26,745 nucleotides of DNA. It comes from a virus. This document shows positions 4,509-24,829 of the stretch, piece after piece (the stretch's first letter is position 1; every line of letters starts with the position of its first letter). Location of the stretch: IMG/VR virus record IMGVR_UViG_3300017951_000098, positions 1 through 26,745 of that record, one strand, 5' to 3'. The notes under the pieces are model-generated. The model saw only the letters and a list, made by a program, of their open reading frames with translations, ran no database searches and was not told the origin of the DNA. The translations under genes and the position numbers were made by a program.

Positions 4509-4752
4509 CGTGGAAGGTTCCTAAGAGTCGATTTAAATACCACCTTGCCTTTTCAAGGTCTTGTATTGGTTTGCCTTTGTATTGATATCGCCAAAGATAT
4601 TTAAGGCAATTTCCTTTGAGGTAACCCTGAAATTCGTCTCGAGACATTGATGCTTGGATTGCTGCAATACATTCAATGTTGCCGCTGTTGTAATGACTTG
4701 GTTTGTTTACCTCGTCTTGAATATTACCTTGACTAATATCGTTTTTCATCAT
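4489..4752 (-). CDS. DUF3310 protein (T7 gp1.7-like)
   Basis: About 87 aa with the DUF3310 signature: VNKPSHYNSGNIECIAAIQ, FQGYLKGNCLKYLWRYQYKGKPIQDLEKARWYLNRLL. The family includes T7 gp1.7, a nucleoside monophosphate kinase-like protein, so a role in nucleotide supply during replication is possible. ATG at 4752 (or the adjacent ATG at 4749, 7 nt from TTGAGA) is preferred over an in-frame TTG at 4761. One of the nine RTTAGYNNNGSTAAT sites lies inside its first codons. Confidence 0.85.
   Translation of the reverse strand: MMKNDISQGNIQDEVNKPSHYNSGNIECIAAIQASMSRDEFQGYLKGNCLKYLWRYQYKGKPIQDLEKARWYLNRLLGTFHDGTDTS
4723..4737 (-). promoter_or_regulatory. Operator-like site, within DUF3310 gene start
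   Basis: ATTAGTCAAGGTAAT on the - strand, followed by AT to give a TAATAT -10-like hexamer. It matches the 15-bp consensus RTTAGYNNNGSTAAT found nine times in the window. It lies in the 5' coding part of the DUF3310 gene, where a bound protein could act as a roadblock or control an internal promoter for the xis-like gene. No good -35 is seen. Confidence 0.55.
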
Positions 4753-4779
4753 TAATCTCAAATAAAACTGTTTTTTTGC

Positions 4780-5370
4780 TCAATTAATTACATAAGTTAA
4801 AAGTGGCAAGAGTTTTGCTTCTAATGTGTTGGAAGGAGGGCAATTTGGTATGGCTATTACTTCGAGCGTATCGTAATTTTTACGTTTGATGATATACCAC
4901 TCGGGTGTTCTACCGGGTGTGAGTCGAGGTTTTTCAAGTTTTAGCATATTGGAACACAAGACCATTTGACCGCTATACCCAATAGGTCGCAGGTCTTTTT
5001 CCAGACGAATAGCGCAAACAGCTTTGTTATTTTCTTCGCAGACTGTAGTAATAATACGTCTTCTATAAGCTATTTCGTGGAAGTTTGGGGGTGTTTTTGG
5101 GTAGACATACAGCACGGGGACGCGAATGCGTTGCGCTTCTATTGGTTTAAAATCTGGATCGATTTCTAAAGGGTCGACTTCGAGGAAATTAGCAAGCTTA
5201 GCAACGGCTTCAGCGTGCAGTTCAGTCATGTTGTTTAGATACTGACTAAACGCTCCTTGTGTCCAGCCTAATGCAACAGCTGCTTGGGTTTGGTTTATTT
5301 CTAGTTGATGCTTTTTTTGATCCCATATACGTCTCAGATTTTGTACCGCTTTGGGCAATTGTCCGCCCAT
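4780..5370 (-). CDS. XRE/CI-like phage repressor
   Basis: A 196-aa protein with an N-terminal Cro/CI-type HTH (about residues 27-60: TQAAVALGWTQGAFSQYLNN, then LHAEAVAKLANFLEVDPLEIDP). The C-terminal part (VPVLYVYPKTPPNF... AVCAIRLEKDL... YSGQMVLCSN) is shaped like a LexA/CI dimerisation region, but no GDSM-type serine or partner lysine motif of an S24 peptidase is visible, so RecA-stimulated self-cleavage is doubtful. ATG follows AGGAGG by 8 nt. It is transcribed in the same direction as the replication genes rather than divergently, and an RTTAGYNNNGSTAAT site lies 33 bp upstream, suggesting autoregulation. It is the best candidate for the protein that binds the nine dispersed sites. Confidence 0.8.
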   Translation of the reverse strand: MGGQLPKAVQNLRRIWDQKKHQLEINQTQAAVALGWTQGAFSQYLNNMTELHAEAVAKLANFLEVDPLEIDPDFKPIEAQRIRVPVLYVYPKTPPNFHEIAYRRRIITTVCEENNKAVCAIRLEKDLRPIGYSGQMVLCSNMLKLEKPRLTPGRTPEWYIIKRKNYDTLEVIAIPNCPPSNTLEAKLLPLLTYVIN

Positions 5371-5374
5371 GTTG

Positions 5375-5770
5375 CTATCCTCCTGATAAGCAGTGTTTCG
5401 TTATTAGCGCCGCTAACTCTTTGAAATTATAAGAGTTTGGCACAAGCTTATCTTGTGTTGATGTTGTTGTGATGTTGGGTCCGTAAAAAACTTGCGCTGA
5501 CTGCGCCCACCCCACAACCAGGAGAGTAGTTTGTCCGTACAAAGCAACTTTTGTCAACCAAATTTGCTGTAATTTGGATAAGCCAAAGGTGACCATTGTT
5601 GTTTTGCGTTTGGGTAGTTTTATGTACTTGTACTCAACCCACAAAGAACCGGCGGGTCCACAGTAGAAAGCATCAGGGACGCCGCCGGTATAGGTATCGT
5701 GGATTTTCCAGCGATACACTTCAGGTGAAAGATGCCGATGCACGGCTTTAATAAAGCCGTGCTCGTTCAA
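5375..5770 (-). CDS. VRR-NUC-like PD-(D/E)XK nuclease
   Basis: A 131-aa protein with a compact nuclease core: GGVPDAFYCG (D33), then LWVEYKYIK (E46-x-K48), i.e. PD...ExK with the short spacing of VRR-NUC and Holliday-junction-resolvase-like enzymes. The start is TTG at 5770, with TAGGT a few nt upstream and no other in-frame start before the motif. Such nucleases belong to the polA/SNF2/D5 replication cassettes of temperate phages, where they may resolve branched DNA. An operator-like site overlaps its 3' end. Confidence 0.8.
   Translation of the reverse strand: MNEHGFIKAVHRHLSPEVYRWKIHDTYTGGVPDAFYCGPAGSLWVEYKYIKLPKRKTTMVTFGLSKLQQIWLTKVALYGQTTLLVVGWAQSAQVFYGPNITTTSTQDKLVPNSYNFKELAALITKHCLSGG
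5403..5417 (-). promoter_or_regulatory. Operator-like site upstream of the repressor gene
   Basis: GTTAGCGGCGCTAAT on the - strand, followed by AA to give TAATAA. It lies 33 bp upstream of the repressor start codon, inside the end of the VRR-NUC gene. It matches the shared 15-bp consensus and would fit repressor autoregulation. Confidence 0.6.
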
Positions 5771-5776
5771 TCAAAC

Positions 5777-6463
5777 CTACTTATCGAAAGGCACGTTTGC
5801 ATACTCTTCGTATACATCCCCTGCTTTTTCGTAGGCTTCTTTTGTGGCCCAACCCAGCTTGTTAATAGTGATGTTCTGGTAGCTTGAGCCACCTGCTTTA
5901 GATGTCTTCAGCTCAGAACCCACTTCCCAAACTGTAGCAAAGCGGTCGCCACCAATGTTGCGGAGATTTGTGTTCCACAGCTTTGAGGTTTTGGCTTTGC
6001 TTTTGTTAAGGTGAAACATAACTGGCTGGTCCGCGACTTCACCTGTTTTTGGGTCAATAGTTAGTACCATGTGCGCGTGATTCTCATATATCTCGTAGTT
6101 TTGCTTGTTAGCATCTTCGAGATTATTGAGGTGCTCGTGCGCTTCAGCTTCTGTTTCAAAGTGATAAGCACGGTAGTCATTGACCTGTACGCCGTATTTT
6201 GGCTTGCAAGTCCAATAACAGAACACCGTGATATTGAGACAGGTAAAACTTTTTGGAAATCGCTCATCAGTCACGATGTTGCGAAAATCGCCCGGCTTCC
6301 AGTCGCCGTCACCTTCTTGTACTACCTTAGATGAAGCATGCACCTGTACAATCTGCGGAATGATAACGTTGTTACCAACGTTCTCGTTGCCGCGACCGAT
6401 GCCATCCATGACATCTTTGAGGTGAGCAGGGATTTTGTCTTCAAGAATTGCTAAGTTAGTCAT
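5777..6463 (-). CDS. Conserved phage protein, possible ssDNA-binding protein
   Basis: A 228-aa soluble protein with no catalytic motif that I can name. The N-terminus (IPAHLKDVMDGIGRGNENVGNNVIIPQIVQV) resembles a group of phage proteins encoded beside DNA polymerase and helicase genes, with a conserved GNENVG and IPxIxxxxA pattern. The middle is beta-rich (FTCLNITVFCYWTCKPKYGVQV, AHMVLTID, QPVMFHLNKSK) as in OB folds. In comparable cassettes the gene at this position encodes a DUF2815-type ssDNA-binding protein, so that role is suggested by context only. It sits between the VRR-NUC gene and a coiled-coil gene with gaps under 15 bp. Confidence 0.6.
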   Translation of the reverse strand: MTNLAILEDKIPAHLKDVMDGIGRGNENVGNNVIIPQIVQVHASSKVVQEGDGDWKPGDFRNIVTDERFPKSFTCLNITVFCYWTCKPKYGVQVNDYRAYHFETEAEAHEHLNNLEDANKQNYEIYENHAHMVLTIDPKTGEVADQPVMFHLNKSKAKTSKLWNTNLRNIGGDRFATVWEVGSELKTSKAGGSSYQNITINKLGWATKEAYEKAGDVYEEYANVPFDK

Positions 6464-6476
6464 CTTTGGTTTCCTA

Positions 6477-6842
6477 TTAATTTACACGTATTGCTATTTT
6501 GCGAAGCTCTCGCGGTGTTACTCCAGGGATTGCAACGCCCAAAGCCCACAGTTCTCTGCATGCAGTGCTTGATAGCCGGCGTTGTAAAACTTCAAAGTTG
6601 CGTGTCTCTGCAAGCCATTCAAAAAACTGTTCCCAGTCTTCGACTTGCGGTACAACTTCTTCACGGACAGCTACAGATGCAGCGTCGTTTGCTGCTTTGG
6701 TCTGCCCTTGTTGATCTAATGTCTGGATGAGATCCCAGTCGAGTTCGCTTTTTTGCTTGTTAAGCTCTTTAAGTTGAGCATTAACATCATCAATTGCTTT
6801 TTTGTTAGCAACGCGTTTTTCGATTATGTCACCTAGGTTCAT
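6477..6842 (-). CDS. Hypothetical protein with N-terminal coiled coil
   Basis: A 121-aa protein. Residues 1-45 (EKRVANKKAIDDVNAQLKELNKQKSEL) form a predicted coiled coil; the C-terminal half is a helical domain (WEQFFEWLAETRNFEVLQRR, STACRELWALGVAIPGVTPRELRKIAIRVN). ATG overlaps the helicase stop (ATGA) and follows AAGGA by 7 nt, so it is co-translated with the helicase. The layout (coiled coil plus small helical domain next to a helicase) recalls small phage replication accessory proteins, but no family is recognised. Confidence 0.7.
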   Translation of the reverse strand: MNLGDIIEKRVANKKAIDDVNAQLKELNKQKSELDWDLIQTLDQQGQTKAANDAASVAVREEVVPQVEDWEQFFEWLAETRNFEVLQRRLSSTACRELWALGVAIPGVTPRELRKIAIRVN

Positions 6843-8188
6843 GCTGTTTTCCTTAGTTCATTAAGTTTGTTGAGTACATTAAGTAAGTCTTCCATTCGTC
6901 CGAGTTTGGTTTGTAATTTGTCGTAGACATCAGGTTCCCAAGTGTCGCGAGCGGCAATCTGAATTACCTCGGTCTTAGCTGTTTGACCGGCACGGTAGAT
7001 CCGTCGATTGAACTGCTGATAATGCTCAGCGTTGTAAGTGGGTGATGCCCAGATAACTGATGTAGCGCGAGTTAACGTAAGACCGTGACCTGCAGACTGT
7101 GGATGTGCATACACAACCTGCAGCTGACCTGACTGCATGTGGTCAACGATGTCTTTGCGTTTGTTGGCAGGTGTGCTGCCGTCGATAAAGTCGTATTTAA
7201 TACCGGCTTGTTCTGACAGCTCGGTTAGCTTTTCGCGCTCGTGTCGCCAGTTGAATGCAACGAGCGAGTGCTCGCGTGCTTGCACAAGATCTAAAACTAG
7301 CTTGTAGCGGTCATCATGAACCGTAATAGGTGTGCCATGATCGTCGTAAATGGCACCAGTACACAGCTGTAAAAGCTTTTTGACTTTGGCACCTGCATGA
7401 ATTGCATTGATTGTGCCTTTGCCGGTGTACAGCACTGACTCATCAGCGAGCGTGTTGTATTGCTTGAGTATATTGGGTGGCAAGTTCACATACATGGTGT
7501 GGACAGATTGCTCTGGCATATCAAGACAAGCTTCCAAGGTGTATCGGATGTTGATGTCTTTAATAGCAGCAGCAACGATTTCCTGCGCTTCGGGCTTGTC
7601 GACCCACACATTGGCAAAGCCGTTGAACTGAGGAGTACAGACAGCGTTACGGAAACCATAGAACCGGTGACCGAGACGAACACCGTCATCGACTAGTAGG
7701 GTAGGGTGCCATACGTCAAGAATGGTATTGCTGTTAGGCGTACCGGACATAGCAATGCGGTACTCAAATAGCTTGACCAGTTTTGCCATGGCTTTGCTGC
7801 GCTGACTGTCTTTGTTTTTGAACGCTGTAAATTCGTCAATACAAATAGTGCTAAAGCCATCCAGTACGTCTGGGTTTTTAACCAACCACTTCACCGCGTC
7901 ATGGTTAGTGATAACGATATCTACGTCGGCTTTGAATGCGTCTGCCCGATTGCGGGCGTATGCGATGGAGTACTTTAGTTTCGGTTGAAACTTAGCGCAG
8001 TCGTCTCCCCAACTGGCTCCAAGGATGCTGAGTGGTGCAAGTACAAGAAGTTTGCCGTCATTCCGTTTGGCGTAAGCATCAAGGACAGAACGTGTTTTTC
8101 CTGTGCCGGGATCGCTTGTGATGAGAACTCTGGGGTTATTGAGAATGAAGTCGGTTGTTGCTTTTTGATGCTCAAAGGGTTTTTGCAT
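6839..8188 (-). CDS. SNF2-family superfamily 2 helicase/translocase
   Basis: A 449-aa two-lobed ATPase. Motif I is SDPGTGKT (25-32), motif II IDEF (117-120), motif III MSGTP (147-151); the C-terminal lobe has SLVAFNWRHEREKL, IDGSTPANKR and motif VI in the form QQFNRRIYRAGQ, with the RxYRxGQ typical of SNF2 enzymes. The length is that of the minimal phage SNF2 protein without extra domains. It probably remodels DNA or replication intermediates alongside the polymerase and nucleases of this operon. Only a weak GGAAAA ribosome site precedes the ATG. Confidence 0.92.
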   Translation of the reverse strand: MQKPFEHQKATTDFILNNPRVLITSDPGTGKTRSVLDAYAKRNDGKLLVLAPLSILGASWGDDCAKFQPKLKYSIAYARNRADAFKADVDIVITNHDAVKWLVKNPDVLDGFSTICIDEFTAFKNKDSQRSKAMAKLVKLFEYRIAMSGTPNSNTILDVWHPTLLVDDGVRLGHRFYGFRNAVCTPQFNGFANVWVDKPEAQEIVAAAIKDINIRYTLEACLDMPEQSVHTMYVNLPPNILKQYNTLADESVLYTGKGTINAIHAGAKVKKLLQLCTGAIYDDHGTPITVHDDRYKLVLDLVQAREHSLVAFNWRHEREKLTELSEQAGIKYDFIDGSTPANKRKDIVDHMQSGQLQVVYAHPQSAGHGLTLTRATSVIWASPTYNAEHYQQFNRRIYRAGQTAKTEVIQIAARDTWEPDVYDKLQTKLGRMEDLLNVLNKLNELRKTA

Positions 8189-8208
8189 TTTCTATTTTCC
8201 ATATCTGT

Positions 8209-8373
8209 TTACTTTTTTCCGATAACTTTTAATTTCTTTTCAGCTTCTTCAGTAGGTAATTCTTCAGGATCTGGTTCATCACTGGCGTATTCGTCAGGCG
8301 GTAAAAGCTGGATATGAAGAGTGCGGCCATCCCATTCATAGGCGTCGAGATTGATTTCGACTTTGATCCGCAT
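8209..8373 (-). CDS. 54-aa acidic protein
   Basis: ATG at 8373 follows AGGAGG with ideal spacing. The product starts MRIKVEINLDAYEWDGRTL and has a highly acidic middle (DEYASDEPDPEELPTEEAEK) with a lysine-rich tail. The beta-hairpin-like N-terminus plus acidic segment could make it a small inhibitor or DNA mimic, but no family is recognised. It directly precedes the helicase gene and follows an operator-like site at 8396-8410. Confidence 0.65.
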   Translation of the reverse strand: MRIKVEINLDAYEWDGRTLHIQLLPPDEYASDEPDPEELPTEEAEKKLKVIGKK

Positions 8374-8395
8374 GTGTCCTCCTGACTGCAGGCAT

Positions 8396-8410
8396 ATTAG
8401 CTATGCTAAT
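8396..8410 (-). promoter_or_regulatory. Operator-like site upstream of the 54-aa gene and helicase
   Basis: ATTAGCATAGCTAAT on the - strand is a perfect 6-3-6 palindrome, the most symmetric of the nine sites, and is followed by AT to give TAATAT. The -35 region 17 bp upstream (TCCAGC) is poor. It lies just after the stop of the Cys-rich gene and about 23 bp upstream of the start at 8373. Confidence 0.6.
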
Positions 8411-8411
8411 A

Positions 8412-9110
8412 TTAATGCTGGAAAAATACAACATTTTTGTCCTGAGATTCCCAGCATATAGTGCAAGTGGCGCAGCTTTTTACGTGCCCAGTTTGCTCAG
8501 GGCAGGCTAAATCGGTGCGTCCAAAATGCCAGTCGTCTGGTCCTCCTTGAACACATGATGTACTAAATAAAGTAGCAGTATCGTCCGAAAAGCGAACACG
8601 GCATCTCTCCTCATATTTTCGATTCATTTTGACTATTGAATAGCCGATTTGTGAAAAACTACGGTGGTGGGTATACCCATAAATATGCAGATTTGGGATG
8701 CTGTTTAGCATGCAACGCCACCATGCAACGTACTCTCTGCAGTAAAAGTCACCCAGTACATGCAGCCGGACCACGAAACCTGATTCATGTTTCATGGATA
8801 ATGCTTCAAGCTGGGATCGAAGTAGTGGTAGAAAATCTGGGTGGGTATGATCGTAACGGATCGCAAACGGCATGTTGTTACCGTAACAGTTGTCCCATTG
8901 CTCGCAGTAAGATGGGCAGCTGGTCCGTTCTTCGAGAGTCAGTGAGTACAAGGGCATTCCTTTCCAGCGACCTTTGGTAATGTAGTTACCTAGCTTTTTA
9001 TTATTTCTCCCCGACTTCAGCATGTTGTCGGCGGGCGGCTTGACGCTTTTTACGTATTTTGTCCTCAATCGACGGTTTGGGTTTGGACTGCTCGTGTCGA
9101 GTGATTTCAT
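8412..9110 (-). CDS. Cysteine-rich conserved phage protein (GP88-like)
   Basis: A 232-aa protein with a conserved-looking core: KKLGNYITKGRWKGMPLYSLTLEERTSCPSYCEQWDNCYGNNMPFA, then RLHVLGDFYCREYVAWW, IYGYTHH, VRFSDDT and a Cys-rich end (CVQGG, CPEQTGHVKSCATCTICW). The C-x3-C-x5-C block and later cysteines suggest a metal site. It resembles the phage GP88 family by motif memory; biochemical function is unknown. ATG at 9110 has AAGGA 8 nt upstream and gives a 110-bp overlap with the preceding gene; ATG 9023 is a shorter alternative without a ribosome site. Confidence 0.7.
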   Translation of the reverse strand: MKSLDTSSPNPNRRLRTKYVKSVKPPADNMLKSGRNNKKLGNYITKGRWKGMPLYSLTLEERTSCPSYCEQWDNCYGNNMPFAIRYDHTHPDFLPLLRSQLEALSMKHESGFVVRLHVLGDFYCREYVAWWRCMLNSIPNLHIYGYTHHRSFSQIGYSIVKMNRKYEERCRVRFSDDTATLFSTSCVQGGPDDWHFGRTDLACPEQTGHVKSCATCTICWESQDKNVVFFQH

Positions 9111-10430: not shown

Positions 10431-10445
10431 ATTAGTGTAGCTAAT
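10431..10445 (+). promoter_or_regulatory. Operator-like site between primase-helicase and nuclease genes
   Basis: ATTAGTGTAGCTAAT on the + strand (ATTAGCTACACTAAT on the gene strand, continuing to TAATAG). It covers the stop codon of the primase-helicase gene and lies 25 bp upstream of the nuclease start. No convincing -35 is seen at 17 bp. Confidence 0.55.
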
Positions 10446-12949: not shown

Positions 12950-12978
12950 ATATTACCTGGACTAATAACGTTAGTCAC
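12950..12978 (-). promoter_or_regulatory. Promoter-operator before primase-helicase gene
   Basis: The - strand has GTGACT (12978-12973), a 17-bp spacer and TAATAT (12955-12950). The operator-like site ATTAGTCCAGGTAAT (12966-12952) covers the spacer end and the -10. The extra half-site GTTAG at 12970-12974 on the + strand forms a second partial palindrome (ACTAATAACGTTAGT, 12961-12975). The promoter overlaps the end of the csrA-like gene. Confidence 0.6.
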
Positions 12979-15491: not shown

Positions 15492-15520
15492 ATATTAGCC
15501 CCACTAATTATTTAGTGCAA
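15492..15520 (-). promoter_or_regulatory. Promoter-operator of the polymerase block
   Basis: The - strand has TTGCAC (15520-15515), a 17-bp spacer and TAATAT (15497-15492). The operator-like site ATTAGTGGGGCTAAT occupies 15508-15494, covering spacer and -10. It would drive the 129-aa gene, the small regulator-like gene, polymerase and csrA. The -35 overlaps the end of the vWA gene. Confidence 0.65.
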
Positions 15521-16627
15521 CAAATAAGTGGTAATTCCCCACGGCGCTTCCTCACTTGCGTCAGTGGAAACCCAAATAACAGGGTAGGGTGGTTCGTCTG
15601 GAAACTCATCGGCAGGGCACAAATCTGTAAAAAAGACCATGCCTTCCGGTTCGATGTGTTGATCGGTTACCCAGTCAAAGACAGGCTGAAACAGCGTACC
15701 ACCACCGCCGCCCACGTTGAGAATGTCTTGGGTTAGCTCTTCGTCTGCAGTCACATCAACAATGCGTGCTTCGTCTACTTGAGTGTCACATTGGATAAAC
15801 ACCATACGCTCGGGACGCATGTCATTGTGGATAGCAACGATCTCTGACAGAAACTTGTGGATCTGTCTGTGAGTCGACCCAGATGTGTCCATGGCAACAA
15901 CATATGTGCCCGGTCCTTCGTCATACATTGACGGAAAATATTCGTCTTCGCTGATATAAGCACGGTGCGGGCGTCGCCATGTGAAGTCGTTTTTGGTTGT
16001 CGCTGCAAAGAAAGGCCACAGATGATCACGAAAATCGATGGTGGCTTTGCCTAACTTGTCAACAAGACGTTCGATTGCTCCCGGTAATTTGCCAGCTTGC
16101 CGTGCAATTTCAGCAGCTTGTTGGACTGCAAGCGTCCAATCAACTTCGAGCTGACCTGCATCAACGTCAATGGCACTGTTGTCTGCATCTGTTACATGGC
16201 CCCATTTACATGGATCACCTGCATCTTCGGGCAGCAACTCGTAGATTGCTTCGGCTGACATGTCGCGATACTGCGGATCATGTAAACCCCCGTCAGGTAA
16301 CACAAAACCACAGTCGAGCAGAATGTGGTTAATCGCATGGTCGCACGCAATGTTCCAACGGTCTGGATCACGTCCGTTGCGGCGAGTCATGTGGGTGTTA
16401 GCGCAGTGCAGTACTTCGTGTGCAATGAGGCCTAATAGCTGCGACGCGTCCTGCTTTTCGACAAATTTAGGGTTGAAGTCTAAGTGTGTGCCATCAGTAG
16501 ATGCTGTCTTGCATTCGTCTAGTTCACGAATTTTTAGCTTGAGACTGAGCACGCCGAAAAACGGCTCGTTGAGGATAAGCTGCGACCGTGCGCTGGTGAC
16601 AGCTTTGTAAGTAGGTGAATATTCCAT
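15512..16627 (-). CDS. vWA-domain metallopeptidase (DUF2201-like)
   Basis: A 371-aa two-domain protein. The N-terminal half is a putative zincin: LIAHEVLHCANTH (H70, E71, H74) with the downstream DRWNIACDHAINHILLD block of the DUF2201 N-terminal family. The C-terminal half is a von Willebrand A-like domain with the MIDAS motif MDTSGSTH (D247, S249, S251), the GGGGGT loop and FFTD. Genes of this type are paired with MoxR ATPases, and the MoxR-like gene is two genes upstream in the same operon. The substrate is unknown; a role in protein remodelling or host take-over is a guess. GGTGG precedes the ATG. Confidence 0.88.
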   Translation of the reverse strand: MEYSPTYKAVTSARSQLILNEPFFGVLSLKLKIRELDECKTASTDGTHLDFNPKFVEKQDASQLLGLIAHEVLHCANTHMTRRNGRDPDRWNIACDHAINHILLDCGFVLPDGGLHDPQYRDMSAEAIYELLPEDAGDPCKWGHVTDADNSAIDVDAGQLEVDWTLAVQQAAEIARQAGKLPGAIERLVDKLGKATIDFRDHLWPFFAATTKNDFTWRRPHRAYISEDEYFPSMYDEGPGTYVVAMDTSGSTHRQIHKFLSEIVAIHNDMRPERMVFIQCDTQVDEARIVDVTADEELTQDILNVGGGGGTLFQPVFDWVTDQHIEPEGMVFFTDLCPADEFPDEPPYPVIWVSTDASEEAPWGITTYLLH

Positions 16628-16628
16628 G

Positions 16629-17291
16629 CTATGCCACCAGTTTGGATGTGAGTACTACTTGGTTTAGGGAGTCAATGTCGACGCCTGACGTATCGACGCG
16701 TCGTTTTGCAGCTTGTTTGCGCGTGATTTTCTCGTGCATTTGACGAATATCATCAGAGTCAACAAACTCTTTTGCAGCAGGCCACGATTCCAGCAGCTGT
16801 TTGAGTGTGTTGCATTCTGATAGAAGCTTTGCGGTTTGACTGTAGAACTTGTTATAACGTTCTGTTAACTGATCGCGTTGTGTTACGCAGTCTTTAACTG
16901 CTTCTTCGATTTTGGCGTTGTCTTCCTCAGAGTTACCACCAAGGCTGCTACGGCGCAGAGCGTGTAAATAATTATTCCGCCCGCAAAACAACTTTCTTTC
17001 TGTGGGCCAATGAAACTCTATCCCACACTCTTTGCCGTCAAGTTGAAATTTGTAATTGACTCTGTCAGTTTCAACGCGACTGACGTGGATTCGACGATCC
17101 TTTAATCCAGTACGGTTGTCTTCGACAAATTGACGACAAGCAACCTGGATAGGGTCTCCGTATGCACCTTGCCAAATGAGATCTTTGATCTCTGCTGAAA
17201 GCATTGGCTGCGGATTGGCTAGTTCAAATGCTTTAATAGCTTTGCGATGAATACGGTTTTGACGATCTTTGGTAAGTCTTACTGAACCCAT
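16629..17291 (-). CDS. Hypothetical protein between MoxR and vWA genes
   Basis: 220 aa from ATG 17291 (AAGGAG 6 nt upstream). It begins MGSVRLTKDRQNRIHRKAIKAFE, a start resembling phage proteins labelled nucleotide-modification-associated (Nmad5-like), but I cannot confirm this. The middle is a beta-rich region (VSRVETDRVNYKFQLDGKECGIEFHW) and the C-terminal third is a long helical coiled coil (DNAKIEEAVKDCVTQRDQLTERYNKFYSQ). It sits 1 bp from the vWA gene and 10 bp from the ATPase gene, so it may be a third component or adaptor of that pair. Confidence 0.7.
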   Translation of the reverse strand: MGSVRLTKDRQNRIHRKAIKAFELANPQPMLSAEIKDLIWQGAYGDPIQVACRQFVEDNRTGLKDRRIHVSRVETDRVNYKFQLDGKECGIEFHWPTERKLFCGRNNYLHALRRSSLGGNSEEDNAKIEEAVKDCVTQRDQLTERYNKFYSQTAKLLSECNTLKQLLESWPAAKEFVDSDDIRQMHEKITRKQAAKRRVDTSGVDIDSLNQVVLTSKLVA

Positions 17292-17301
17292 AGTGGTCTC
17301 C

Positions 17302-18303
17302 TTAGAATACGATGGATGCGTTATCGGTAGTCCAGCTTTGAACAGCTGGGTCGGTAATAAGTGAACGGTCTTTGCCGATGATGTCTTTGACTGCAACAAC
17401 CTGATACTCAGGCGGCAAACGACGTAAGTACGTCACAATTGGCTTGATATCTTGCTGGTTTGCACGAGCAGACAGAGCACCAGCGACGGCATACAAAGTA
17501 GATGCTGACGTTGGGACACGCACACTGCCGGGGCTGCGAATAATCTGATCAATGTCAGGCAACTCGTGGAAAATCTTGCGGTGTGCAATGAACTCACCAG
17601 CTGCACCGTCGCCAATGCTGGCTGCAATGCCGTGGAACTCGTCAGCAAGATGTGGCAACTTTTGGTTGAGTCGAATCCAGCTACGGGGTGTTGGAAACGC
17701 TTTTTCCTGCGTATCTGCGTCGTGTAGCAGATTAGGTCGGTAACGTAAAAACGACGGAATCGACGGATCACAACCGATTTGGTATGCGTGCACGCAGAAG
17801 TCGTCAATGTGTGGCTCGACAGTATAGTGGTCGAAGCGATCTGCAACTGCTTGACCCATGTCGTTAGCACCAGCGCGGTCGTATGTCCGGTTACCTGCAG
17901 CGATAATGATCGTATTAGCTGGTAATTCATAAGTGCCGATGCGCTTCATTAATAGCAGCTGAAGCAATGCGTTCTGTGTCGCTTTGGGTGCGTGTGTCAA
18001 GTCGTCGATAAAGAGCACGACAGTACCTGGATAGTTGGTATCAGGGTAATCTTCAGGCACGCCGTATCGGGTGCGGTACGAACCATCTACCTGTTCGACA
18101 ACTTTGAGACCACCGCGAACGTCGACTGGGTCAAACAAGTTGGCACGGATTTCGTACAGCTTGGCGTTCTGTGACTTGGCGTATTGATACACCATCTCGG
18201 ATTTGCCGATACCGGGTGCACCCCAGATCATCATGGAAAGATTAGCCGTGGCGCATGCTGCTATTTCTGCAGGCAGTTGGCTGGGTCTAATTGTCATGCT
18301 CAT
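17302..18303 (-). CDS. MoxR-type AAA+ ATPase
   Basis: A 333-aa AAA+ protein. Walker A is GAPGIGKS (28-35), Walker B VVLFIDDL (95-102), sensor 1 IIAAGNR (133-139), and the arginine-finger segment is ADRFDHY. The DPVDVRGGL and PTPRSW segments are typical of MoxR/YifB-like ATPases. MoxR ATPases work with vWA-domain partners, as found here at 15512-16627. The ATG is preceded by AGGAG at 6 nt. It probably forms a hexameric chaperone or activating machine. Confidence 0.9.
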   Translation of the reverse strand: MSMTIRPSQLPAEIAACATANLSMMIWGAPGIGKSEMVYQYAKSQNAKLYEIRANLFDPVDVRGGLKVVEQVDGSYRTRYGVPEDYPDTNYPGTVVLFIDDLTHAPKATQNALLQLLLMKRIGTYELPANTIIIAAGNRTYDRAGANDMGQAVADRFDHYTVEPHIDDFCVHAYQIGCDPSIPSFLRYRPNLLHDADTQEKAFPTPRSWIRLNQKLPHLADEFHGIAASIGDGAAGEFIAHRKIFHELPDIDQIIRSPGSVRVPTSASTLYAVAGALSARANQQDIKPIVTYLRRLPPEYQVVAVKDIIGKDRSLITDPAVQSWTTDNASIVF

Positions 18304-19307: not shown

Positions 19308-19609
19308 GACGACACTCCCTTTGGATCGTGAGTGCGCCAGCCGAGCTTGCGGTAGGGAAACTTGTCGGTCTTGATCATGCCGTATGATTCATGGCGCATG
19401 GTTCGCTTCATGAAGAACAACAGCACGCTGACGATGGTGCCCGCTGTGAGTGCTGCCATCATGCCGCTGAAGGTGCCAGCGAGCAGGAACATGAGCAGCA
19501 CGGTGACGAACAGATCGACATAAATGTCGTAGTTGATGATCTTGCGGACACCGAATTTGAACAACAGAAACAGCATGCCAGCAGCAGCAATTAGTCCCGC
19601 TAATAACAT
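19304..19609 (-). CDS. Membrane protein, 101 aa
   Basis: ATG at 19609 with AGGAG upstream. An N-terminal hydrophobic segment (MLLAGLIAAAGMLFLLF) is followed by two more (VDLFVTVLLMFLLAGTF and MMAALTAGTIVSVLLFF) and a basic cytoplasmic tail (MKRTMRHESYGMIKTDKFPYRKLGW). It is probably an inner-membrane protein. An operator-like site lies inside its first codons. Possible role in superinfection exclusion is speculative. Confidence 0.65.
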   Translation of the reverse strand: MLLAGLIAAAGMLFLLFKFGVRKIINYDIYVDLFVTVLLMFLLAGTFSGMMAALTAGTIVSVLLFFMKRTMRHESYGMIKTDKFPYRKLGWRTHDPKGVSS

Positions 19610-19616: not shown

Positions 19617-19798
19617 TCCTTTTTGCTTGAATCGGTTAGAAACTTCACCAACACATCCCGCTTGTTGGCGGTGTTGTTGCACAGCTCGGTGATGAACTGC
19701 TGCACAGCTCGCCTGTTTTCGAAACGGACGAGCATTTCCACGCGAGCTGCTGCCATATCAGTCAGCTTGGTCCATGGATCATGGTTCAGATTGGACAT
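19613..19798 (-). CDS. Hypothetical protein, 61 aa
   Basis: ATG at 19798 follows GGAGG by 6 nt. A helical protein (PWTKLTDMAAARVEMLVRFENRRAVQQFITELCNNTANKRDVLVKFLTDSSKKE). It overlaps the upstream gene by 20 bp and ends 3 bp before the next start. No family is recognised. Confidence 0.6.
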   Translation of the reverse strand: MSNLNHDPWTKLTDMAAARVEMLVRFENRRAVQQFITELCNNTANKRDVLVKFLTDSSKKE

Positions 19799-20666: not shown

Positions 20667-20821
20667 TGTTCCTCCACTTCGATTACTTCGGACTCGTCGC
20701 AGTTGAGGTACTTGTAGCTGAAGTCGTCCCAGTAAATTTCTTCGGCTTCTTCAGGGCTATCAGCATCCACGTAGTAAACGACTAAGTTGGTTTCTTTTAC
20801 GTAGACTCTGTAATAAGTCAT
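20663..20821 (-). CDS. Hypothetical acidic protein, 52 aa
   Basis: ATG at 20821, overlapping the upstream stop; the stop overlaps the next ATG (ATGA). The product is MTYYRVYVKETNLVVYYVDA followed by DSPEEAEEIYWDDFSYKYLNCDESEVIEVEEQ: beta-beta-helix-beta with a very acidic surface. Its small size and acidity resemble phage anti-host inhibitors, but nothing specific is recognised. Confidence 0.6.
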   Translation of the reverse strand: MTYYRVYVKETNLVVYYVDADSPEEAEEIYWDDFSYKYLNCDESEVIEVEEQ

Positions 20822-20964
20822 TGATCAATGCCTTCCGTTTCCCGAATGAAAAACTTGACGTGGATAAAGCCGCCCTGCATCGATGAGATGGCGTAATCAA
20901 ATGGGCAGTTCTCTACCCAGTTAAGGAAGCTTTGAATGTTTTTTGCTTGCAGTGTCAGTGCCAT
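20818..20964 (-). CDS. Hypothetical protein, 48 aa
   Basis: ATG at 20964 with AAGG 8 nt upstream; the stop overlaps the next gene's ATG. Sequence: MALTLQAKNIQSFLNWVENCPFDYAISSM, then GGFIHVKFFIRETEGIDQ, a helix then two beta strands. It begins 18 bp downstream of the tRNA-Tyr 3' end. Confidence 0.6.
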   Translation of the reverse strand: MALTLQAKNIQSFLNWVENCPFDYAISSMQGGFIHVKFFIRETEGIDQ

Positions 20965-20981
20965 GCTTCGTGCCTTATATT

Positions 20982-21066
20982 TGGTGTGGGAGGTAGGAAT
21001 CGAACCTACTCACCTTTCGGGTCAGATTTACAGTCTGATGCGACTCTCCTACTTCGCCGCTCCCAC
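20982..21066 (-). tRNA. tRNA-Tyr (anticodon GTA)
   Basis: The - strand folds as a full cloverleaf: acceptor GTGGGAG/CTCCCAC (7 bp), D-stem GCGA/TCGC, anticodon stem TCAGA/TCTGA with loop CTGTAAA (anticodon GTA), a class II extra arm (ACC-CGAAA-GGT), T-stem GTAGG/CTTAC-type pairing around TTCGATT with CCTAC, discriminator A and encoded CCA. The long variable arm is as expected for bacterial tRNA-Tyr. It is embedded in the leftward early operon between small genes and is overlapped by a coding frame. Confidence 0.95.
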
Positions 21067-21185
21067 TTGTTTGTTAAGAAAAGCATCCAGCTTCTCCATT
21101 CTTCGGGAGACATTGACTCTTTGTTTTCAATGAACGCGCGCTTATAAACGTCTCTACGTCGTTCTTCATACTCACATCGGTTCAT
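21006..21185 (-). CDS. 59-aa basic protein running into tRNA-Tyr
   Basis: ATG at 21185 has GGAG 8 nt upstream. The product MNRCEYEERRRDVYKRAFIE, NKESMSPEEWRSWMLFLTNK looks like a genuine helical peptide up to the tRNA 5' end (21066); the last 20 residues are encoded by the tRNA itself and the stop TAG lies in the T-arm region. Either the ORF has read into the tRNA after insertion of the tRNA gene or the overlap is tolerated because mRNA and tRNA processing compete. Confidence 0.5.
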   Translation of the reverse strand: MNRCEYEERRRDVYKRAFIENKESMSPEEWRSWMLFLTNKWERRSRRVASDCKSDPKGE

Positions 21186-21236
21186 GCTTCATGCTCCATG
21201 GTCCGGCACGCTAACTCCCCCGCCGGAGGCAAAAAT

Positions 21237-21270
21237 AAAAAAACCCCGATGCCAAAAGGTGGCACCGGGG
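21237..21270 (-). terminator. Strong rho-independent terminator
   Basis: On the - strand CCCCGGTGCCA pairs with TGGCATCGGGG (11 bp including one G-T), loop CCTTT, followed by seven Ts. It lies 12 bp after the stop of the 220-aa gene at 21282 and separates it from the tRNA/small-gene cluster. Confidence 0.9.
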
Positions 21271-21281
21271 GTGGAGTAACA

Positions 21282-21944
21282 CTACGCGGCTAGTCGCGCG
21301 TCGAGCATCTTGGCGCGATTTGCCATGAAGCCAGCGAGCTTGGTCTTGGTCTCGTTGGCCTTGAGTTCTGCAACGATCTCGTCCATGACCTGCATAGCCG
21401 CGTCGTAGGTATCAGCTGGCGTGGCGTGGACCCACGAGTCTGATGTCTCGTCGTAGCTGGACGGGTTGAAGAACAACAGGTCGATGTCGAGCGCCTCACC
21501 GTCGATGTCCAACTCGTTCATGATCAGCGTCTGAGTCTGGAACAACAGCTCGTAGTCAGACTGAACGGCGTCCTTGATGCGATCCACGGGCAGATTGACA
21601 CCTGTCTCGTCGATAGCGGTCTGAGCAAGGTCAACACCGTAGATGCCACCAGACTCCTCTTCCTGCTGAGCGGCACGGTCGAGGTCAACTTTGAGCCTGC
21701 GCGCGTTCCACATGATGCGATCCATGAGGGTCTGCATGTGGTTGATGACAGCAAAGACGTGGAACGGAGCCGTGTCTCTGTCAGAGTTGCACTCAAACGC
21801 GGCTTTGGCATAGGCCACATCGATGGGGGTCTCTGAGTTGGTAAACCCAGCGATGTAGTTAGCCAAGTTGGTGTAGTAGGTGTTGGACTTACCCGCACAC
21901 AGCTTGTTGAGGGCACCGGGGATGAATGAATCGTTCATGTTCAT
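21282..21944 (-). CDS. Hypothetical protein, 220 aa, monocistronic
   Basis: ATG at 21944 follows AAGGAG by 5 nt. The protein is acidic and mostly helical (NKLCAGKSNTYYTNLANYIAG, FHVFAVINHMQTLMDRIMWNARRLKVDLDRAAQQ, DRIKDAVQSDYELLFQTQTL, AAMQVMDEIVAELKANETKTKLAGFMANRA). No family is recognised. It has its own operator-bearing promoter (21958-21986) and a strong terminator (21237-21270), so it forms a separate regulated unit, which suggests an abundant or tightly timed product. Confidence 0.75.
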   Translation of the reverse strand: MNMNDSFIPGALNKLCAGKSNTYYTNLANYIAGFTNSETPIDVAYAKAAFECNSDRDTAPFHVFAVINHMQTLMDRIMWNARRLKVDLDRAAQQEEESGGIYGVDLAQTAIDETGVNLPVDRIKDAVQSDYELLFQTQTLIMNELDIDGEALDIDLLFFNPSSYDETSDSWVHATPADTYDAAMQVMDEIVAELKANETKTKLAGFMANRAKMLDARLAA

Positions 21945-21957
21945 AAGAACTCCTTGA

Positions 21958-21986
21958 TTGTTAGTACAGCTAATAATGGGAAGCAA
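21958..21986 (-). promoter_or_regulatory. Promoter-operator of the 220-aa gene
   Basis: The - strand has TTGCTT (21986-21981), a 17-bp spacer and TAACAA (21963-21958). The operator-like site (GTTAGTACAGCTAAT read on the + strand, 21960-21974) covers the spacer and -10. The start codon is at 21944. Confidence 0.6.
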
Positions 21987-21995
21987 TGCAACAGA

Positions 21996-22259
21996 CTATG
22001 TCCTAGTAAAGTCCGCGCACTGCTCATTGGTAACGACCGGCTGCGAGGAACGAGCAGTCGTTGGTTCGTTGAAGACGATGTCGCCGTCATGCTCCGTGTG
22101 GTAGACGAAGGGACGCTCTCGCTCGTCAAGAAAATCTGCCAACGGGCACTCGTTTCTGCGTGTTGCCTGCAAAAAGAGATGCACTGAGTCGTCAAGACAA
22201 AAATCTTCGGGAGTGTTAAGGCGCAGTGGTATCTGCGTGTTGCTGAATACATGGGTCAT
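21996..22259 (-). CDS. Hypothetical protein, 87 aa
   Basis: ATG at 22259 follows GAGGAGG by 8 nt. Sequence: MTHVFSNTQIPLRLNTPEDFCLDDSVHLFLQAT, then CPLADFLDERERPFVYHTEHDGDIVFNEPTT. Acidic, mixed beta/helix, no family recognised. Its end lies just upstream of the 220-aa gene's promoter. Confidence 0.6.
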   Translation of the reverse strand: MTHVFSNTQIPLRLNTPEDFCLDDSVHLFLQATRRNECPLADFLDERERPFVYHTEHDGDIVFNEPTTARSSQPVVTNEQCADFTRT

Positions 22260-22262
22260 GGT

Positions 22263-22493
22263 TTATGCCTCCTCTCCTATGTCTTCGAGAAACGCTTCGT
22301 GGCAGGACTTGCACTGGTACACACCAGTTCGCCAGCCAACGATGACTTCGCGGAACCAAGTGTCGGTATCGGGCCAGACTTTCTGAACAAGCTCACCGAT
22401 TTGGTATCGATCAAGCTCATGGCTGGCAACGACAACGTGGTTTTCTTCGCCGCAGTCGTAGCAAGTTGCGTTGAGTCGGTATTGTTTAGTCAT
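22263..22493 (-). CDS. Zinc-ribbon-like protein, 76 aa
   Basis: ATG at 22493 with AGGAG upstream. Two CxxC knuckles, C11-YD-C14 and C61-KS-C64-H, flank about 46 residues (HELDRYQIGELVQKVWPDTDTWFREVIVGWRTGVYQ), the arrangement of a zinc ribbon. It may be a small DNA-binding regulator. It is the first gene downstream (in transcription) of the repeat array at 22.6-22.9 kb. Confidence 0.65.
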   Translation of the reverse strand: MTKQYRLNATCYDCGEENHVVVASHELDRYQIGELVQKVWPDTDTWFREVIVGWRTGVYQCKSCHEAFLEDIGEEA

Positions 22494-22613
22494 GGTTCAT
22501 GGCTCCTGATTCATGGATCGATGTACAGTGGTGTATATCGATACAGGTAAAAAATGGGTGAAAAAGGTGAAAATCGCTGTGGAGATCGACGAAGATCACA
22601 GCAATTAGCTACA

Positions 22614-22914
22614 TGTGCCAGCATGTGCCAGCATGTGCCAGCAATGTGCCAGCAAAAGAGAGAAAAAAGTCAATAAAAACAACGATGTGCCACTTGTGCC
22701 AGCAAAATTGAGTTTTACTCACACTGTAAAAAAAGCGTGTCGAATTTCGTTTTTGCGTCAAAAAACCCGTAGGTGAAAATGGCAAAAAGGTGGCACAGGT
22801 GGCACAAAATGGCACAAAATTAACAAAAGGACATTAAAAACAACAGGTTAGCCCTGTGCCAGAGGTGGCACAAAGGTGGCACAAAGCCGGCACAGCACTG
22901 GCACAGGTGGCACA
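22614..22914. repeat. Iteron-like array of TGTGCCA / TGGCACA, candidate replication origin
   Basis: The 523-bp gap 22494-23016 has no credible gene. TGTGCCA occurs at 22614, 22624, 22634, 22645, 22686, 22695 and 22855; the reverse complement TGGCACA at 22791, 22800, 22810, 22866, 22877, 22899 and 22908, plus CGGCACA at 22888. Neighbouring copies are mostly 9-11 bp apart, i.e. one helical turn, so bound protein molecules would line up on one face. The left half is mainly one orientation and the right half mainly the other, around an AT-rich centre (22702-22780). This is the layout of iteron origins or partition sites. Confidence 0.7.
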
Positions 22915-23006
22915 AGCTCGTTGTAGCACGTCACATGCCCGATGAAACATGAAAAATGGCTCATGCATCATGCACTGTGGCACGCAAACCTCCTGGCCCT
23001 CGGTAG

Positions 23007-23026
23007 AAAAGGGAGCTTACGCCCCC
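23007..23026 (-). terminator. Possible terminator at the end of the 23.0-24.1 kb cluster
   Basis: On the - strand GGGGGC-GTAA-GCTCCC forms a short stem (one mismatch) with a GTAA tetraloop, followed by TTTTCT. It overlaps the stop codon of the 76-aa gene and precedes the repeat array. Confidence 0.5.
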
Positions 23027-23247
23027 CTGTCCTGATCGATGAACAGATATCCATCCATTTCTTCGATGTTGTCGAGTGAGTCAGCGATGTCCAATGCTGA
23101 GAAGGTGAGTAAACCGAGGAGTACGTCGCCGGGGTTCTCCTTGGTGTATTGCCATGCTTTCGATGCATAGGGCTTGCTCTTGTCGATGAGGGATAAAGCG
23201 GTGGGTTTAGCTTGATCCATGAGACGGTCGAGTGCTGTGAATTTCAT
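23017..23247 (-). CDS. Hypothetical protein, 76 aa
   Basis: ATG at 23247 with AAGGAG 8 nt upstream. Sequence: MKFTALDRLMDQAKPTALSLIDK, YASKAWQYTKENPGDVLLGLLTFSALDIADSLDNIEEMDGYLF. There is a weakly hydrophobic helix in the middle (DVLLGLLTFSALDIADSL), so membrane association is possible. The end overlaps a terminator hairpin. Confidence 0.6.
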   Translation of the reverse strand: MKFTALDRLMDQAKPTALSLIDKSKPYASKAWQYTKENPGDVLLGLLTFSALDIADSLDNIEEMDGYLFIDQDRGA

Positions 23248-23519
23248 GATGCATGCTCCTTGAGCCATTGGTTGTTGAGTGCTTCTGCGTGATCCAGTGC
23301 GCTGGTTTGTGCGTGACGTGCCATTGCGGCGAGAAGGGCGTTGAGGTTAGTCATTGCGACGGTGGTGATAATGATATGAAAGAAGAAGCCAGCGATGATG
23401 GTGAGAATAGAGGTACTGCCAACGAGAGCGCAGAAACCGGTGATGGTGATGGTGAACATGATGGCGCTGACGATGAGACTGCTAACCGCAAGCGCGTAGA
23501 GCTTAAGATTCTGAAACAT
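23244..23519 (-). CDS. Membrane protein, 91 aa
   Basis: ATG at 23519 with AGGAG 9 nt upstream; the stop overlaps the next ATG. Two or three hydrophobic helices (LYALAVSSLIVSAIMFTITI, FCALVGSTSILTIIAGFFFH, IIITTVAMTNLNALLAAM) and a soluble C-terminus (ARHAQTSALDHAEALNNQWLKEHAS). Likely an inner-membrane early protein. Confidence 0.65.
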   Translation of the reverse strand: MFQNLKLYALAVSSLIVSAIMFTITITGFCALVGSTSILTIIAGFFFHIIITTVAMTNLNALLAAMARHAQTSALDHAEALNNQWLKEHAS

Positions 23520-23531
23520 GGGATAAGTCTC

Positions 23532-23609
23532 CTAAATAAAAGTCATGAGAAGCCACGGGAAAGCGGCGGCAAACAAAAGAACGAAAGATTCAAAAACGAT
23601 AGGTCTCAT
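23532..23609 (-). CDS. 25-aa transmembrane micropeptide
   Basis: ATG at 23609 with AAGGAG 8 nt upstream; the stop TAG lies in the ribosome site of the next gene. The product MRPIVFESFVLLFAAAFPWL followed by LMTFI is one hydrophobic helix. Strong ribosome site, tight packing between neighbours and hydrophobicity support translation despite the small size. Confidence 0.55.
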   Translation of the reverse strand: MRPIVFESFVLLFAAAFPWLLMTFI

Positions 23610-23621
23610 GGGTAGATCTCC

Positions 23622-23753
23622 TTAGTGGAAGGGACAGGGGTCGTCTTCGTCGTAGTGGCAGTCACAGACTTCGCAGTAGATTTCTTTAGGCTCGAAGTCG
23701 AGTTCTACGGTCGGGTCTTCGAACTTGTTGAATGGCAGGTCGTACTGTTCCAT
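23622..23753 (-). CDS. 43-aa acidic Cys-rich protein
   Basis: ATG at 23753 with AAGGAG 7 nt upstream. An acidic N-terminus (QYDLPFNKFEDPTVELDFEPKE) is followed by a metal-site-like end: C27-x2-C30-x-C32-H33...C40-x2-H43. The arrangement could hold one zinc ion. Its stop overlaps the ribosome site of the 25-aa gene. Confidence 0.6.
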   Translation of the reverse strand: MEQYDLPFNKFEDPTVELDFEPKEIYCEVCDCHYDEDDPCPFH

Positions 23754-23764
23754 GGTGGGTCTCC

Positions 23765-24064
23765 TTATGCCCAAGCTACAGCGTTAAATGTGATGCGGTC
23801 GTTGTGGACAATAGGTGCCCAGACCATGTCGACGCCAAACACGTCAGCCATCGCGTCAATCCACAGTTCGAGGTCGTAGGAGTCTTCCTGCTCCATGAGT
23901 CCTGAAACATGCTCAAGTGCTCTGATGCCTGCTTTGGTATCAGCGAAGGCGTAGGTGTATCCAGTGTGACCGGTAGGGTGCTCGTCCTCCTCGATGAGAA
24001 CGAAAAGGTCTTCGGTGCAGACGATGGCGTTGTCCGCTGGGTGTAGCTCAAGGTACTGATTCAT
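23765..24064 (-). CDS. Hypothetical acidic protein, 99 aa; first gene of leftward cluster
   Basis: ATG at 24064 with GGAG 7 nt upstream; a longer frame to 24106 has no start site. Sequence: MNQYLELHPADNAIVCTEDLFVLIEEDE, TYAFADTKAGIRALEHVSGLMEQEDSYDLELWIDAMADVFGVDMVWAP: alpha/beta and strongly acidic. As the first gene of the leftward cluster it is likely expressed early. No family recognised. Confidence 0.6.
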   Translation of the reverse strand: MNQYLELHPADNAIVCTEDLFVLIEEDEHPTGHTGYTYAFADTKAGIRALEHVSGLMEQEDSYDLELWIDAMADVFGVDMVWAPIVHNDRITFNAVAWA

Positions 24065-24333
24065 GGTGTATCTCCAAAGTAAGCGAGCGTCATTGCTCAC
24101 AAACACGAACGGTCAAGCGCGAGGAACGAGTGGTTGAGGGGGTTACTGCCAGACAAGGTTCATGCGACATGGTGCGAAACAAGGTTCCAAGTCGGAAAAC
24201 GGGGGAAACGGGCGCGTAACTATCCGGCAGGGGAGACAATGAGTGAGTGATTCAGATAAATTTTTTCAAATTTTTTTCTAGTAAAAATTTTTCGCCGCCC
24301 TATCTTGTGTAACAGGCAGCTGGGGGGCTGTAT
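24065..24333. promoter_or_regulatory. Divergent intergenic region with A/T tracts
   Basis: 269 bp between the leftward early genes and the rightward HNH/terminase operon. No gene is seen. Three A/T tracts (24258-24266, 24268-24277, 24283-24292) suggest bent DNA or an UP element. ACAAGGTTC is repeated near 24153 and 24179. I find no clear sigma70 box pair here, so the early promoter may use a non-canonical or activator-dependent sequence. Confidence 0.4.
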
Positions 24334-24810
24334 GTGAAAAAACAAATGTGTACGCTCTGTAACGAAGAGCTACCGATCAGTGAATTCGAACAATACCCAA
24401 GCGGAAAATGGCGCATGCAATGTGAACCATGCCGCATGAAGCATAAGCAGCGTAAACGTCACATGGTCATGCAGCAGTCGCATGAGGCGTATCTCAGAAA
24501 CCTGCATACAAAGCTAAAGTCCACGCGTAAAAAGACCCATCCCTGGAACTTGGTTCCTGAAGACTTAATTGATATTTGGGACGAGCAGGGCGGAAAATGC
24601 GCGGTATCGGGCGTTGCGTTAACACATCACCTAGATGGCTCAGGTGCCAAAGAGTTCAACGCGTCAATTGATCGTATAAACAATGATCAGGGCTATTCGC
24701 GAGAAAATGTCCGGTTAGTCGCGTACAGAATAAACATCATGCGGCATACATTAGCGACAGATATGTTTTGGTGGTGGATCAAGACTATTCATGATCACTC
24801 TTGTGAATAG
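24334..24810 (+). CDS. HNH endonuclease with N-terminal zinc finger
   Basis: 158 aa from GTG 24334 with a G-rich stretch upstream (ATG 24346 is the alternative). The N-terminal zinc finger is C6-TL-C9...C30-EP-C33 with KWRMQ between; a basic linker (RMKHKQRKRH) follows; the nuclease core is GGKCAVSG (89-93), ASIDRINNDQGY (110-121) and N125-VRLVA, the pattern of phage HNH/endonuclease VII-like proteins. HNH enzymes next to terminase genes often assist DNA packaging, so this is the likely role. Confidence 0.85.
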   Translation: MKKQMCTLCNEELPISEFEQYPSGKWRMQCEPCRMKHKQRKRHMVMQQSHEAYLRNLHTKLKSTRKKTHPWNLVPEDLIDIWDEQGGKCAVSGVALTHHLDGSGAKEFNASIDRINNDQGYSRENVRLVAYRINIMRHTLATDMFWWWIKTIHDHSCE

Positions 24811-24829
24811 ATATTAGTACAGGTAATAT
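24801..24829 (+). promoter_or_regulatory. Promoter-operator of the terminase operon
   Basis: TTGTGA (24801-24806), 17-bp spacer, TAATAT (24824-24829), the best sigma70 match of the set. The operator-like site ATTAGTACAGGTAAT (24813-24827) lies across the spacer and -10, so a bound protein would block polymerase. The predicted start (about 24836) is at the ATG of the next gene, giving a leaderless or nearly leaderless mRNA. Confidence 0.7.

Follow-up and report, generated by a model that had tools for sequence, protein, structure and literature searches.

What reads the nine near-identical copies of a short palindromic word that are scattered over IMGVR_UViG_3300017951_000098, a virus record of 26,745 bases analyzed here over its whole length (the window)? 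An earlier note on this DNA had taken them for operators of a dimeric helix-turn-helix (HTH) protein, most simply the repressor encoded at 4780-5370. Our analysis favors the same answer: with a probability of roughly 0.9, the nine sites serve as operators for a lambda-CI-like repressor that the phage itself encodes. We take this protein to be the reader because its recognition helix covaries with the operator word, its modeled N-terminal domain has a lambda CI fold, and the word forms a 17-bp dyad.

Nine dyads at gene starts

The pattern RTTAGYNNNGSTAAT gives 10 strand-matches at nine places in the window, the copy at 8396 being a perfect palindrome that matches on both strands; all nine coordinates proved exact. 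In 100 dinucleotide shuffles of the window, the mean number of matches was 0.01 and the largest 1, and the pattern read backwards has no match in the window. With two mismatches allowed, 32 strand-matches are found in the window versus 10.4 expected, so only the strict sites are clearly distinct. A position weight matrix (PWM) built from the nine sites scores each of them at 17 or more; the next best score in the window is 12.9. The symmetric core is better written TATTAGY-NNN-RCTAATA, which corrects the 15-bp form of the earlier note to 17 bp: a half-site T-A-T-T-A-G around a 5-bp center makes a dyad-symmetric candidate operator. C occupies position 5 in 3 of the window's 18 half-sites. The strand matches are mixed relative to gene direction, in the window and in relatives alike.

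All nine site centers fall between -45 and +40 of a gene start, an interval that covers 14% of the sequence for 44 starts picked by hand after the sites were seen. As the earlier note had it, two of these candidate operators lie in first codons and seven upstream of starts. The first two are 4723..4737 (minus strand), in the DUF3310 gene just downstream of the repressor gene, and 19590..19604 (plus), in codons 2-6 of g19304. The site at 5403..5417 (minus) falls within the end of the gene before the repressor gene, its center 40 bp upstream of the repressor start; the perfect palindrome at 8396..8410 stands upstream of a 54-aa gene, which is followed by the SNF2-type helicase gene. Upstream of the exonuclease gene, 10431..10445 (plus) overlaps the end of the primase gene; 12952..12966 (minus) lies upstream of the 830-aa primase gene itself. 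The remaining three are 15494..15508 (minus) upstream of g15079, 21960..21974 (plus) upstream of the leftward g21282, and 24813..24827 (plus) upstream of the rightward gene 24837, ahead of the terminase genes. The upstream position of 15494 and 21960 holds with the homology-supported ATG, not with the longest open reading frame (ORF).

Because the consensus was fitted to the same nine sites, the relatives provide the independent test. Two other IMG/VR records, G001 and G004, both of sample 3300022934, are the same strain as the window (G001 overlaps 1-6134 at 99.9%, G004 overlaps 6091-26745 at 99.99%); over the ~54.6 kb of window plus G001 there are 12 sites with a PWM score of at least 15 and one at 14.6. 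When the PWM was run over G005, a 61-kb relative, 13 sites scored at least 15 versus 0.19 in shuffles, and 8 of the 13 centers lie within -45 to +40 of uncurated ORF starts, with 10% of the sequence covered. Each of the nine window sites has a counterpart at the corresponding gene start in G005, as do all five in the stretch covered by G006; the arms are kept and the 3-bp centers mostly changed. The site at 4723 corresponds to G005 13107, G002 437 and 479, and G003 2945. The counterpart of 5403 is G005 13794, at an identical distance to the repressor start, and those of 8396 are G005 16835 and G002 4105, 30-31 bp from the start. Likewise, 15494 is matched by G005 23925 and G006 11445, and 21960 by G005 31737 and G006 4515.

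A matrix of site positions was compiled in 171-bp windows for 14 records, two of which (the window and G001) are one strain. A site with at most two mismatches stands near the exonuclease start in 11 of 11 records with an orthologue and near the start of gene 24837 in 9 of 9, in both cases across the two operator classes described below. The primase start has a site with at most three mismatches in 11 of 13 records with an orthologue. For contrast, terS has none in 9 records, and PolA has one weak site in 13.

Recognition helix and operator word

The CI-like repressor (4780..5370, minus strand, 196 aa) consists of a lambda-type HTH domain with the helix LGWTQGAFSQYLNN and a variable, beta-rich C-terminal domain. 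It matches Pfam HTH_3, and its best phmmer match is lambda CI 3kz3 (E 9e-5, N-terminal domain). An AlphaFold2 model has a mean predicted local distance difference test score (pLDDT) of 84.9 and a predicted template modeling score (pTM) of 0.58. The modeled N-terminal domain superposes on lambda CI 3kz3 with Z 12.2 over 77 aligned residues (root-mean-square deviation [rmsd] 2.5); over its full length, the model fits best to 7jvt, the lambda-186 hybrid repressor (Z 11.8, rmsd 6.8 over 171 residues). Family profile searches gave no S24 match for the C-terminal domain at E<=0.01. The recognition helix is invariant in four relatives, and the C terminus is variable. Lambda Gln44 and Ser45 make DNA contacts; in an alignment to the lambda helix, class 1 Q-G-A and class 2 Q-S-N stand opposite its Q-S-G. 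Among annotated phages there was no near DNA match to the window and no match to its repressor at the default limit. The G005 repressor, queried at E<=1, returned 60 records, the best 20 of them weak, with E values no better than 0.08 and no more than 52% of the query aligned. A profile search of genome contigs with the repressor alignment gave 72 stretches, none confirmed.

An alignment-based scan with two peptide patterns yielded 53 loci with a repressor relative, at which helix and word change together. The earlier note had looked to phages with the same repressor but no sites as the case against it; class-1 sites are present at all 29 loci with the helix QGAFSQY (144 sites in 541 kb), which hold one class-2 word in all. 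The single QGALSQY locus and the single QGAFGQY locus also have class-1 sites, as do 12 of 16 QGAISHY loci, which hold two class-2 words. At the six QSNFSHY loci, class-1 sites are absent (0 of 6) and class-2 words, 30 in number, occur in five. Near-copies exist among these loci: there are 24 distinct C termini in the 29 QGAFSQY loci and 5 in the 6 QSNFSHY loci.

The class-2 word, a 17-bp palindrome TAGTAC-N5-GTACTA, was found de novo. In the dyad search, TAGTA-N7-TACTA came first in G032 (13 copies, 0.05 expected) and G033 (12 copies, 0.04 expected). In the 17-bp frame, the half-sites TATTAG and TAGTAC differ by two changes per half. Class-2 sites in these two records precede gene 24837 and the primase, exonuclease, SNF2 helicase, and excisionase genes, as well as g21282 (G032 only) and a gene whose G005 orthologue matches major head proteins. 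The terL of G032 and G033 is 78% identical to that of G005, and the terL of G023 and G031 76%, so the class-2 backbone is no more distant than some class-1 relatives. In an SNF2 tree of 41 rows, from which duplicates and fragments were excluded, the QSNF rows group as a single starred clade within the class-1 rows, with no more than moderate support at the forks that nest it there.

The class-1 dyad itself came first in the de novo search of G009, G013, G016, G023, G028, and G031. It was among the best five, behind other leads that were often CATG-N3-CATG, in the window, G001, G004, G005, G007, G008, G010, G026, and G035, and outside the best five in G006, G019, G020, G021, G022, and G025. No class-1 site at PWM>=15 was found at L045, L046, L052, or L053. 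Weaker mixed words such as TAGTAC..CTAATA are present at some loci. L048 (QGAISHY) has a class-1 site together with TAATA-N7-TATTA, and L112 and L113, with the helix QSLFSHY, have less symmetric sites that contain TAGTAC. Two repeats were seen in passing: ACTAA-N4-TTAGT at L048 18378-19002, with two of three spacings 153 bp, and a TTAA array of 8-bp period at L044 8711-8759.

A third word comes from a related prophage in Parendozoicomonas haliclonae (G038:C28 262001-317000, L125-L127), found via head-protein alignment, which has homologues of terL, portal, head, PolA, primase, SNF2, and repressor. Its repressor-like protein (PHROG transcriptional repressor, HTH_3) carries the helix QSTISQY. 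The first 55 kb of this stretch contain seven exact copies of TATAGG-N5-CCTATA (0.003 expected; ten copies at one mismatch) and neither the class-1 nor the class-2 word; the last 24 kb, presumed to be host DNA, have no TATAGG-N5-CCTATA. Just upstream of the prophage repressor gene stand two operator-like sites (one and two mismatches), 19 bp apart.

Finally, L069 (record G035, 57% G+C in the locus) was found through the repressor HTH alone. Compared with 111 window and G005 proteins, it shares only the repressor N terminus (49% over 72 residues) and a weak integrase match (20%). Beside its QGAF-type repressor stand three class-1 words at 24-bp intervals, of which the second is imperfect, and two more, also 24 bp apart, lie 2 kb on.

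Promoter register and alternative readings

To locate the sites relative to promoter elements, 110 non-redundant class-1 sites were aligned by gene direction. They derive from 202 sites at PWM>=15 with full 60-bp flanks; flanks more than 60% alike were merged, and G004 (same strain), G035 (other phage), G020, G025, and the class-2 records G032, G033, G034, and G037 were left out. TTG starts exactly 12 nt before the site in 33 of 110 cases on the gene strand versus 1 of 110 on the mirror strand, a register reached in 0 of 50,000 strand-label permutations. A 17-nt spacer from this TTG puts the -10 hexamer on the downstream half-site. TAATAT stands there in 44 of 110 sites and, the site being palindromic, in 41 of 110 on the mirror strand; it is present in 22 of 33 sites with TTG versus 22 of 77 without. 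Three window sites have TTG at the register and are operator/promoter candidates: 15494 (TTGCAC, 17 nt, TAATAT), 21960 (TTGCTT, 17 nt, weak -10 TAACAA), and 24813 (TTGTGA, 17 nt, TAATAT). The sites at 12952 and 19590 have GTGACT. Judged by their sequence, many class-1 sites appear to be operators inside sigma-70-type promoters; those without TTG may belong to weaker promoters or act as roadblocks.

The repressor, presumably as a dimer, would bind the 17-bp palindrome TATTAGY-NNN-RCTAATA, which at many sites would lie inside a promoter made of a -35-like TTG, 17 bp, and a -10-like TAATAT that is the operator's own downstream half. In a lysogen, the bound repressor would shut off the replication, nuclease, and terminase-side units one by one and, in relatives, would also silence the units around the major head and tail genes. 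Silencing would proceed unit by unit and not only through one lambda-like OR/OL switch, and each specificity class would define one immunity group. More tentatively, at what we consider somewhat less than even odds, the operator's double role as the -10 box of many promoters may confine changes of immunity specificity to those half-site positions at which the promoter tolerates them (TATTAG, TAGTAC, TATAGG, mixed words). Helix and ten or more operators would nevertheless have switched in concert, making a natural lambda-CI specificity series in a genome-wide, promoter-by-promoter silencing network.

Several observations weigh against the operator reading or narrow it. Chance sites with at most three mismatches occur in 5-29% of 171-bp windows, depending on the record. 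Among the 13 records in which the repressor was mapped, only 4 have a site at most 110 bp upstream of its gene, and two of these are one strain; the close loci L025-L028 also carry such a site. The operator before the repressor gene that the earlier note reported holds for the window (5403) and not as a general trait. The position of 19590 is conserved in relatives, but so is the encoded protein, for which the site may partly be kept. Two-thirds of the class-1 sites have no TTG at the register, class-2 sites show no register signal (5 versus 3 of 25), and a scan with a generic promoter consensus found fewer promoter-like sites than shuffles, so the promoter evidence rests on the register test. 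As for covariation, one scan pattern, GWTQGAF, comes from the helix itself, so QGAF is over-represented; the tree suggests that the switch to class 2 is one clade and not many independent events; 4 of 16 QGAISHY loci lack class-1 sites at threshold, so helix residues alone do not fix the class; and the excisionase gene is linked and diverging too (~40% identity in class-2 phages).

The sites without TTG leave some room for a mainly L5-type mode of action, in which repressor bound in or between genes as at stoperators blocks elongating RNA polymerase and not promoters. Several sites do lie within genes (4723 and 19590 in the window, 26334 and 20501 in G001, 49528 in G005). Against this, the motif is symmetric and its strand matches are mixed relative to genes, the sites hug gene starts, and in one-third a -35-like element stands at precisely the expected distance, on the gene strand alone; the in-gene site G001 26334 itself has TTGCAA 12 nt upstream. 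We regard this mode as unlikely to be the main one. A different protein could also read the sites, be it the excisionase-like HTH_17 protein (4299-4508), an unlisted phage activator, or a host regulator, and the linked, diverging excisionase gene would agree with the first of these. We hold a different reader to be improbable: L069, which has little else in common with these phages, has the word beside its repressor; the site geometry fits lambda CI; and a host regulator would not be expected to vary along with the phage repressor inside one phage family. CtrA was rejected as reader, its TTAA-N7-TTAA direct repeat fitting neither the word nor the class changes.

It is also conceivable that the sites are only conserved phage promoters with a -10 variant, as TTG at 17-bp spacing and the TAATAT hexamers would have it. 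Yet both half-sites are conserved, TAATAT is equally common on the mirror strand even though one half alone can be the -10, and the word changes in both halves between classes, all of which makes this very improbable. RNA hairpins controlling translation would account for an inverted repeat with a 3-nt loop near start codons, but 3 of 9 sites have a G-G mismatch at pair 5, the strand matches are mixed relative to transcripts, and the repeat covaries with a DNA-binding helix; we give this explanation next to no credence.

Genomic setting, known systems, and immunity

Rightward genes of the window encode a tail fiber, an integrase, and later an endonuclease VII-like protein, followed by gene 24837 and the terminase genes. 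Leftward genes encode the excisionase-like HTH_17 protein (4299..4508, minus; Pfam HTH_17, TIGR01764), DUF3310, the CI-like repressor, Pam3 gp33/gp34-like proteins, the SNF2-type helicase, GP88, exonuclease, primase, PolA, a DUF2201 metallopeptidase/VWA-like protein, a MoxR-like AAA ATPase, and many small proteins. The tyrosine integrase (3254..4315, plus; Pfam PF00589, E 3e-22) marks a temperate phage. The nearest annotated phages, Pseudomonas phages KPP25 and phiR18 and Aeromonas phage phiA008, are distant (primase ~30%, polymerase 30-35%, terminase 42-50% identity). KPP25 and phiA008 are virulent phages; 50 kb of each contain neither word and no dispersed dyad of note.

Other features of the window were observed alongside. 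The phage-borne DUF2201 metallopeptidase/VWA-like protein and MoxR-like AAA ATPase lie at 15512-18303, and no orthologue of the pair was mapped in G020, G028, G032, or G033. A tRNA-Tyr (anticodon GTA) is located at 20982-21066 on the minus strand, within the small-gene region. At the left edge, 1-530 holds 126-nt periodic repeats in three copies of 60-100% identity, bordering a region with matches to longer tail genes in G001 and G005. A second dispersed word, CATG-N3-CATG, is present in 16 copies versus 0.4 expected in the window, and heptad-phased CATGNNN runs occur at 14 places (3705, 4009, 8786, 12809, 18501, 19390, 19773, 21183, 22250, 22491, 22962, 23245, 24161, and 24428). This word is also leading or high in G004-G010 and G013 and absent from the best five dyads of G016 and G019-G037.

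The repressor of phage phiC31 has dispersed, conserved inverted-repeat operators. The closest likeness of the protein described here is to lambda CI, in the fold of its modeled N-terminal domain (Z ~12 to lambda CI chains). The lambda operator consensus as given in PMC10742460 is the 17-mer TAtCACCGCcaGTGaTA, beginning TAtCAC, so both dyads are 17 bp long and start with T-A-T. The half-sites differ (TATTAG here, TATCAC in lambda), and single candidate operators stand at many gene starts here, whereas lambda has two clusters of three; lambda-like clusters of the word are found only in the other phage, L069, not in the window.

In layout, the better parallel is phage P1, whose C1 repressor, according to PMC8546580, has 22 operators dispersed over the genome that repress separate units. 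The resemblance is one of layout only, operator-like sites being dispersed near the starts of several transcription units: the P1 operators are described there as asymmetric 17-mers, unlike the symmetric lambda-type dyad and lambda-CI-like protein found here. Cluster A mycobacteriophages have 20-30 dispersed sites whose words differ between subclusters, and L5 sites are 13 bp long, asymmetric, oriented with transcription, and mostly outside promoters, as portrayed in PMC6550527; one Cluster A repressor is described in PMC9283540 as monomeric and as reading DNA with two domains. The earlier note's comparison with L5 stoperators therefore stands for the dispersal of many candidate repressor sites over the genome and fails for their nature, the sites here being symmetric and one-third of those of class 1 having promoter elements. 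By analogy, the network appears more like that of P1 than like L5 stoperators. An asymmetric repeat whose role is not known is mentioned for siphophages Stevie and T1 in PMC4319613. Among the papers listed in searches of the open-license PMC literature, none, judged by title or the start of the abstract, describes the operators of these phages. The earlier note had called dispersed operators unusual for such a phage; within this phage group they are the usual layout.

Dispersed operators were already known from P1 and Cluster A; what is new is a lambda-type repressor with the same layout and several natural specificities. Uncultured relatives offer several helix-operator pairs of differing specificity at the starts of orthologous genes, and L069, a phage that is otherwise different, combines an almost identical helix with the class-1 word in lambda-like clusters. 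How a repressor shifts specificity while a dozen scattered operators must follow is thereby testable with cloned parts, and the P. haliclonae relative, a prophage in the genome of a bacterial isolate, offers a route to experiments. Immunity groups of uncultured phages could become predictable from sequence.

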